Part shown: piece after piece, positions 12,647 to 13,633 of the stretch | Layout: the number at the start of each line of letters is the position of its first letter | Numbering within the stretch: the stretch's first letter is position 1 | Source: an uncultured Granulosicoccaceae bacterium | GTDB taxonomy: Bacteria > Pseudomonadota > Gammaproteobacteria > Granulosicoccales > Granulosicoccaceae | Direction of reading: 5' to 3' | Assembly: GCA_938005265.1 (NCBI GenBank) | Contig: CALLOA010000006.1 | Span: forward strand, 30,134-94,133 | DNA: 64,000 nt | Notes under the pieces: generated by a model | Seen by the model: only the letters and a program-made list of their open reading frames with translations | Database searches by the model: none | What the model was told of the DNA's origin: nothing | Program-made: the position numbers and the translations under genes

Positions 12647-12816
12647 CGCTGTGCCGGCACTGGCCAACGGGCAGTATCTTGGTGCCGATATCGGCAAAAC
12701 GGGTTATGCGAGCTGCGAATTATCCCGGTTTGCCTGTTGCGTCACTGCAAGTTACTACTTCACGCGCAATTTGGTGCTGAAAGTGCTAATCTCATAGTTC
12801 CACTAGCAACCAACTC

Positions 12817-12971
12817 AGGAGGTGATCGAATGTCGAGTGTTTTGAATCTGGGCAGGTCAGCCCTGGGTGTTACTTCGATTTCTCTTCGCTAATCCGGACT
12901 GAATTCGAGACACCCGATGTTGGCTGACCTATCAGCCAAGACACGGGGGCTACAATCTGTAGCCCCTTTTT
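12817..12971 (+). ncRNA. Candidate structured RNA or leader with strong SD, mini-ORF and terminator
   Basis: The 447-bp gap 12647-13093 holds no convincing gene, but 12817-12971 is highly structured. AGGAGGTGATC (12819-12829) is an 11-nt perfect match to the 16S anti-SD. It sits 7 nt (from GGAGG) before ATG 12831, which opens a four-codon ORF (MSSV, stop 12843-12845). Possible helices: (a) 12834-12847 with 12903-12917, about 13 bp with one mismatch and one bulge; (b) 12854-12862 with 12922-12930, nine perfect pairs; (c) 12920-12927 with 12932-12939, eight perfect pairs around CCTA; (d) 12865-12870 with 12910-12915. Helices a and b cross (pseudoknot topology); b and c are exclusive. A terminator follows. 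This could be an attenuating leader for the AhpD-like gene or a free small RNA. I recognise no known family. Bases 12647-12816 and 12972-13093 show nothing clear apart from a weak hairpin (AGCAGCCT/AGGCTGT) near 13030-13051. Confidence 0.5.
12946..12971 (+). terminator. Rho-independent terminator of the candidate RNA
   Basis: Perfect eight-base-pair stem GGGGCTAC (12946-12953) with GTAGCCCC (12959-12966), five-base loop AATCT, then five Ts (12967-12971). There is no protein gene of usable length between this and the preceding 12646 stop, so it either ends a small RNA or acts as an attenuator 122 bp before the next gene. Confidence 0.85.
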
Positions 12972-13093: not shown

Positions 13094-13633
13094 ATGGCCA
13101 GACTTCACGAAGCTCGCGATGATGAAATGGGTGCTGAGTTGTGCGAACAACTGCAGTCAGTAGTGCCCGGCAACAAACTACCAGCGGTTTACCGGCAAAT
13201 GGGCAACAGTGCTGAAGCGTTGTCGGCTTATCTGGCTATGGAAGCAGCAATCAAGGCTGGATCATTGGAGTCGAGAGAAGTGGAAGCCGTGAAACTGGCC
13301 GTCAGTGAATTAAACCGCTGTGATTACTGCCTGTCTGTGCACACAGTAAAATCAAAAACGGCCGGGCTTGACGCCGATGCGCAAATTCGAATTCGTAAGG
13401 GTGATGCTACAGGAGAGCCACGGCTTGATGCTATTGTCAGTGTAGCCCGGACTTTTTTTGAAAAACCGGGAACATTACCTGATGAAATCATGGCAACGGT
13501 CCGTGAAGCTGGAATAACGGATAGAAACCTTCTTGATATTGTTCTCGTAACCAGCACGATTTTTCTGACAAACACATTCAATCATATCAATGACACCGAG
13601 CTGTCATTCGCACCTGCACCCGCTTTGGTCTAG
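13094..13633 (+). CDS. Carboxymuconolactone decarboxylase / AhpD-like peroxidase family protein
   Basis: 179 residues. The AhpD-fold signature ELNRCDYCLSVHTVKSK gives a redox CxxC pair (Cys76, Cys79) and the downstream His83 used in proton relay by alkylhydroperoxidase-like proteins. The segment before it (LESREVEAVKLAVSEL) and the helical C-terminus match peroxidase-related carboxymuconolactone decarboxylase family members of about 180 residues. It probably reduces organic peroxides or acts as a thiol reductase partner in the cytoplasm; a true decarboxylase role is unlikely with an intact CxxC. It lies downstream of the structured RNA and terminator, which may control it (inference). Confidence 0.85.
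   Translation: MARLHEARDDEMGAELCEQLQSVVPGNKLPAVYRQMGNSAEALSAYLAMEAAIKAGSLESREVEAVKLAVSELNRCDYCLSVHTVKSKTAGLDADAQIRIRKGDATGEPRLDAIVSVARTFFEKPGTLPDEIMATVREAGITDRNLLDIVLVTSTIFLTNTFNHINDTELSFAPAPALV

Follow-up and report, generated by a model that had tools for sequence, protein, structure and literature searches.

The closest described relative of the RNA analysed here is RF01867, which Rfam types simply as an sRNA gene. The entry bears the name of CC2171, a Caulobacter sRNA whose source is reportedly Landt et al. 2008. According to a passage of PMC11701678, Rfam 15 added one covarying pair to RF01867. A Mesorhizobium huakuii candidate placed in RF01867 has sequencing coordinates of 215 nt in the relevant part of PMC5596092, which suggests, by database assignment, that a relative of our RNA is transcribed in that species. 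The main text of a ribosome-profiling paper on Caulobacter does not name CC2171 (PMC4117421). Our literature search, which was not exhaustive, found no functional description of RF01867, and no account of a mini-ORF or of a wider RNA family.

Short ORFs on stand-alone small RNAs are known from SgrS/SgrT and RNAIII/hld, in which the peptide is a functional product. Together with VcdRP, these dual-function sRNAs resemble our RNA in standing alone and in carrying a short ORF; their peptide is functional, whereas peptide sequence varies widely in the family described below. The ORF of VcdRP is given as 29 aa in PMC8672173. As presented in the pertinent part of PMC10117765, rnTrpL of Sinorhizobium (peptide peTrpL) is similar in that ribosomes engage the mini-ORF of a small RNA. 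It is a trp attenuator RNA with a leaderless 14-aa ORF, whereas our RNA has an extended Shine-Dalgarno (SD) sequence and no fixed downstream gene. The same part of that paper places 33% of 54 newly found translated sORFs of S. meliloti on annotated sRNAs.

The RNA locus and its start region

The window is a 64,000-nt stretch of DNA from an uncultured Granulosicoccaceae bacterium (contig CALLOA010000006.1). A preliminary description had proposed a structured RNA in one of its intergenic regions; our analysis confirmed the observation in part and supported part of its interpretation. The locus has the following elements:

12784-12792, + strand: extended -10-like element TGCTAATCT, a promoter predicted by motif scan
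12798-12971, + strand: predicted transcript of ~175 nt, its 5' end placed from the -10 element
12817-12827, + strand: extended SD sequence AGGAGGTGATC, 11 nt
12830-12892, + strand: mini-ORF of 20 codons, ATG at 12830, peptide MSSVLNLGRSALGVTSISLR
12837-12844, + strand: 5' arm of helix P1, GUGUUUUG, beginning at +8 of the mini-ORF (fold, covariation)
12848-12862, + strand: 5' arm of helix P2 (12848-12851 and 12854-12862), within the mini-ORF (fold, covariation)
12920-12939, + strand: alternative local hairpin S2 (12920-12927 with 12932-12939), mutually exclusive with P2
12922-12935, + strand: 3' arm of P2 (12922-12930 and 12932-12935; fold, covariation)
12937-12944, + strand: 3' arm of P1, CAAGACAC, abutting the terminator stem (fold, covariation)
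12945-12967, + strand: intrinsic terminator

A covariance-model match in the window spans 12792-12968. Several parts had been seen correctly: the perfect 9-bp helix of 12854-12862 with 12922-12930, the 8-bp hairpin of 12920-12927 with 12932-12939 that competes with it, and the strong intrinsic terminator. The 11-nt SD sequence had also been recognised, but it was placed at 12819-12829 and lies two bases further left. The ORF had been given as four codons, and the ATG at 12830 opens 20 instead. A terminator-like hairpin stands 3' of P1 in the complete relatives that we inspected.

The start region is unusual in its own genome: the pattern AGGAGGTGATCN{1,4}ATG occurs a single time in the 4.9-Mb assembly to which the window belongs. 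Complementarity of the SD to 16S rRNA could be checked in one carrier, G393, which has a complete 16S gene and falls in the same family group as the Alteromonas-like copies; here 13 nt, TAAGGAGGTGATC, form the exact complement of its own 16S 3' end. Two of eight genomes searched yielded 16S genes, and elsewhere the genes seem to be missing; neither 16S 3'-end patterns nor a 16S search gave a match in the window's assembly (G000) or in the one-contig assembly G057. At five alphaproteobacterial loci (L131, L134, L135, L137, L140) the SD is GGAAGGTGATCC, an imperfect complement.

Upstream, a -10-like TGNTANNNT is present in 41 of 45 gammaproteobacterial members and ends 23-27 nt 5' of GGAGG; 200 mononucleotide shuffles gave 2.6 occurrences on average and never more than 8. 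A generic sigma-70 scan listed no promoter at this locus. The placement of TGNTANNNT ahead of the SD in so many members makes it likely, on motif evidence, that the RNA has its own promoter.

Long-range helices P1 and P2

The 210-nt region around the locus folds at -80.9 kcal/mol against -58.4 +/- 4.3 kcal/mol after shuffling (z -5.3), and is more stable than all 200 of 200 shuffles. A 13-bp helix drawn in the preliminary description can form in the window, where 12 of its 13 pairs stand in one register and 12837-12847 make a perfect 11-bp run with 12903-12913 (G-U allowed), but it was not found in 11 relatives checked, whose corresponding stretch offers 7-9 of the 11 pairs at best. In the best fold of the window, the arm at 12837-12844 pairs with 12937-12944, its conserved partner, to form P1. 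The helices had also been said to cross. In the conserved fold P1 encloses the 9-bp helix of P2; the two are nested, and no pseudoknot is required. We rejected the 13-bp helix and the pseudoknot as the conserved fold, given their absence from the 11 relatives.

P1 joins the letters from +8 of the mini-ORF to those directly 5' of the terminator, and P2 joins the interior of the mini-ORF to a segment 5' of P1's 3' arm. Both covary strongly among relatives. Alignment A1 holds 17 of the 18 Granulosicoccaceae sequences then collected (L015 was omitted for its odd 3' end) and was made by sequence, yet the structure was itself derived from it; in A1, 92.4% of cells are paired versus 87.9% in shuffles, and 6 of 21 pairs change on both sides versus a shuffle mean of 2.8. 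Alignment A4 is broader, with 46 sequences from 57 sources after omission of redundant, very long and incomplete loci, of L062, and of four antisense or short matches (E 0.0036-0.15). Both-sided change affects 18 of 21 pairs in A4 versus 8.6 when shuffled, and 19 of 21 versus 15.4 in a 44-sequence alignment that includes many alphaproteobacteria, figures that are flattered by the fitting of alignments A4 and A5 to the structure. When the register of A4 was slid as a control, only 7-10 of the 21 pairs changed on both sides. In the 44-sequence alignment, 87.5% of cells are paired versus 64.7% in shuffles. Within these comparative limits, the alignments show that P1 and P2 covary and that P1 is located between start codon and terminator.

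The letters of P1 differ by lineage (GUGUUUU/AARRCAC, GUGAG/CUCAC, CAUUGUC/GACAAUG, AUGAGAUU/AAUCUCAU, GCG/CGC), and its position is nearly constant. In single-sequence folds, the first pair formed with the 30 nt before the terminator lies at +7 or +8 in 36 of 47 sequences and at +14 in one, which carries a 6-base insertion; P1 is absent from the best fold in the other 10 of the 47, a set that excludes two further sequences in which the script located no terminator.

S2 would be an alternative to P2. Its pairs occupy 93.1% of cells across the 17 Granulosicoccaceae sequences, its covariation score was reached by 18 of 500 shuffles, and it emerges when the first 45 nt of the mini-ORF are removed before folding. 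As judged from this alignment, S2 is moderately supported as a conserved hairpin in the 17 sequences. Across 55 representatives, the segment after the ORF is slightly more folded than its shuffles (mean z -0.79), which only weakly suggests a family-wide local hairpin at this place.

A separate feature, absent from the gammaproteobacterial members inspected, is a hairpin like GGAGCARCCTCC near the 3' end of the ORF, before the stop codon. It occurs in many alphaproteobacterial members, with examples in L128, L132, L136, L148 and L151.

Relatives of the RNA and the place of RF01867

Of 57 related genomes searched at the DNA level, 12 had matches at E <= 0.01, the window's own included, and an exact core pattern was present in 17 of 48 Granulosicoccaceae genomes, again counting the window's own. 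With covariance model R1, built from a 17-sequence seed, 40 of the 48 matched at E <= 1. We count as carriers the 28 with E <= 1e-17; besides these, four diverged full-length copies lie in large genomes (E 0.001-0.44), and matches at E 0.07-0.81 in G017, G027, G013, G059, G023 and G034 were left out of the count. One diverged copy, L062, is matched by a second model, R2, at E 8e-17; it lies outside the R2 seed, which does contain its close relatives L059-L061.

Other weak R1 matches were rejected. L065 (E 0.006) appears to match the SD by chance, and in L069 (E 0.01) the script detected no SD-plus-ATG site. Five more (L063, L064, L066, L067, L068; E 0.0002-0.0095) hold little beyond the 5' UTR of a secreted-protein gene. 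At these loci, the gene for a secreted-looking Granulosicoccaceae protein opens with a 5' UTR almost identical to that of our RNA (TCCC..GGCAAC..AAAAGGAGGTGATC), so that the leader may have been copied or may represent a shared strong start region.

A pattern scan of named genomes returned 48 stretches: 26 come from Granulosicoccaceae and the other 22, inspected individually, from Alteromonas, Glaciecola, Ca. Spongiihabitans, Acidiferrobacterales, Rhizobiales, SAR116 and others. The Glaciecola sp. MH2013 copy (L071) has the start region, is without CACGG or terminator, and looks truncated. Across 398 genomes of the phylum, R2 gave matches in 105 at E <= 0.01, of which the weakest often covered short stretches only. 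A third model, R3, whose seed includes some sequences found by that R2 scan, matched 96 of 385 genomes in the class of G452 at E <= 1e-4, in 74 of 277 genera; this class was inferred to be Alphaproteobacteria from the likeness of its copies to named ones. Each of these genomes has one match, except G430 with two. Among 369 gammaproteobacterial genomes R3 matched eight, four of them already in its seed (G000, G005, G009, G393). Three new members have the anatomy of the family (L175, L176, L177). A weak match, L178 (1520-1660), has the extended SD and ATGTCT, with an ORF of merely 11 codons, and is doubtful as a member. The RNA is thus distributed broadly in alphaproteobacteria and patchily in gammaproteobacteria, which may reflect common descent with losses, or transfer.

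The statement that the RNA belongs to no known family holds in one respect and fails in another. An Rfam scan of the whole window at gathering cut-offs gave no match, and the window stays below every Rfam cut-off; it nevertheless aligns end to end with RF01867 at 19.8 bits (cut-off 75; E 0.052 in a 601-base search). In a first set, one of 20 loci reached the RF01867 cut-off. L145 is an RF01867 sequence at 88.1 bits, and R2, whose seed lacks it, recovers it at E 1e-10. In the other direction, the RF01867 model recovered 15 of 20 members tested at E <= 0.5, two of them gammaproteobacterial; among the 15, L165 alone exceeds the RF01867 cut-off, and L118, L119, L020, L023 and L012 were missed.

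RF01867 also has the same order of parts as the window RNA: an extended SD, an RTGTCT start region and a long helix, in its case CAUUGUC/GACAAUG, which, like P1, links the letters just past the start codon to those that immediately precede the terminator. The letters of P1 and P2 differ between the two, and an alignment containing the window RNA together with an RF01867 member shows P1 covarying. Because R2 finds L145 and the RF01867 model finds 15 of the 20, we conclude from model comparison that RF01867 is one narrow branch of a wider RNA family. A narrow Rfam sRNA entry is thereby joined to a family present in 96 of 385 sampled genomes of the inferred Alphaproteobacteria, and the family gains one anatomy with testable parts.

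The mini-ORF and what its translation may do

That the RNA carries a mini-ORF is borne out by its relatives. An ORF of 15-31 codons is present in all 108 members tested, which start with ATG (95), GTG (11) or TTG (2). Among 66 representatives at <75% identity, all 66 have such an ORF, compared with 19.6 +/- 3.6 (maximum 29) in 500 dinucleotide shuffles of nt 10-105, a count that rests on related sequences. When the first 45 nt were retained, the shuffles kept an ORF in 32.3 +/- 3.6 of 66 (maximum 43), so the conserved letters of the helices account for part of the openness. Of the two other frames, one stays free of stops through codon 15 in 25 of the 66 representatives and the second in 42. 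These counts omit L164, L174, L176 and L178, whose start the script missed or misplaced (by eye, 25-26 codons in the former three and 11 in L178), the incomplete L071 and L075 (contig end), L113, and the Granulosicoccaceae stretches of the pattern scan, which mostly duplicate loci already included.

The peptide is far less constant than the ORF. From codon 7 onward, non-synonymous change is about as frequent as synonymous change or more so in the two largest groups (18 aa: pS 0.249, pN 0.233, 25 ORFs, 53 pairs; 23 aa: pS 0.140, pN 0.196, 12 ORFs, 25 pairs). Smaller groups vary: the 22-aa group (pS 0.190, pN 0.100; 7 ORFs, 8 pairs) and a 19-aa pair (pS 0.278, pN 0.083) lean towards amino-acid conservation, and codons 2-6 in the 18-aa group (pS 0.161, pN 0.033) do likewise. 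Peptides of different lineages have little in common past MS. In five of the 17 aligned sequences (L018, L019, L007, L012, L011), loss of one base has moved the P2 motif GATCAG to a different frame, with both the motif and the ORF retained. On these comparisons the members show an ORF that is constantly present within its length range, with amino-acid conservation weak or absent past codon 6. Its constancy, the near equality of pS and pN past codon 6 and the frame shift that spares the motif make selection for the passage of ribosomes, more than for a peptide, the simplest account of the aligned sequences.

The preliminary description had suggested that the RNA might attenuate the AhpD-like gene at 13094, and we put hardly any weight on a cis-acting leader of this kind. 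Within the genus of the window's bacterium, a spermidine-synthase-like gene (PF01564) flanks the RNA on one side and the AhpD-like gene (PF02627 in the window) on the other, an AhpD-like gene being downstream in all three genomes (two judged by eye); among the loci examined, this arrangement is restricted to that genus. Other Granulosicoccaceae, Alteromonas, SAR116, Rhizobiales and others have different neighbours, often convergent ones, as at L020, L021, L026, L079, L099 and L103, and there is no fixed neighbour gene. The alternative helices also leave the terminator in place: its hairpin has 10 pairs in the full fold and, with most of the mini-ORF omitted, 7 pairs in the best fold or 9 in the centroid, so neither of the two folds made contains an antiterminator helix that excludes it. 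Neither of the marks of an attenuator or leader peptide, a fixed downstream gene and such a helix, was found. The varying, often convergent neighbours exclude attenuation of AhpD as the function of the family, and we rejected it on gene context.

A small mRNA would fit the retained SD, start codon and start region and the open frame: its mini-ORF would make a functional micropeptide, with the helices merely tuning translation and stability. The mostly silent changes in codons 2-6 of the 18-aa group, the excess of pS over pN in the 22-aa group, and two six-base insertions past codon 2 that preserve the frame (L053; L055 and L056) point the same way. However, pN is near or above pS in the two largest groups, relatives do not share one frame or much peptide past MS, and the 5' arm of P1 falls within the conserved first letters, so that we regard a micropeptide as unlikely, while the most credible of the alternatives. 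Less probable again is a decoy, in which the extended SD and AUG would hold a 30S subunit while P1 at +8 impedes its entry into elongation and initiation elsewhere falls. The 13-nt exact complement of the 16S 3' end in G393, the onset of P1 at +7/+8 in 36 of 47 folds and the uniqueness of the SD-ATG in the window's assembly would all suit a decoy. A bare binding site, though, would have no use for a stop-terminated ORF of constant length, which 66 of 66 keep, and P2 would be superfluous.

The reading that we prefer, at roughly even chances, is a structured sRNA whose long-range helix is opened by ribosomes on the mini-ORF, so that the RNA would alternate between closed and open forms. Two earlier suggestions, a new small RNA and ribosomes that open the 5' arm of a helix, agree with the covariation and with the conserved ORF. 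The RNA would be transcribed alone from its own promoter; ribosomes would then translate the mini-ORF and unwind P1 and the 5' arm of P2, and in gammaproteobacteria the released 3' arm of P2 would refold as S2. Under ribosome loading, P1 and the 5' arm of P2 would thus be open and the 3' half free or in S2; when ribosomes do not load, the RNA would close on itself. Its shape would govern what the 3' half does, be it target pairing, protein binding or decay, and the RNA would report ribosome loading to an output that acts in trans, unlike an attenuator. Since the long SD and the ORF are kept while the peptide varies, ribosomes would likely flip the RNA between two shapes.

A stronger version, to which we give somewhat less credence, holds that in this RNA switch of alpha- and gammaproteobacteria the conserved product is translation itself: a ribosome passing along 15-31 codons would be the moving part that opens P1/P2, the peptide would be irrelevant, and the availability of ribosomes would be reported to an output in trans. 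If so, CC2171 would be one branch of a family of switches of this type. Selection for translation in the absence of a conserved peptide would represent a new mechanism by which a stand-alone RNA senses ribosomes, and it would caution that sRNA mini-ORFs need not encode functional peptides.

As a minor observation, L154 and L159, members with a TTG start codon, have GCG/CGC in P1 in place of GUG/CAC.
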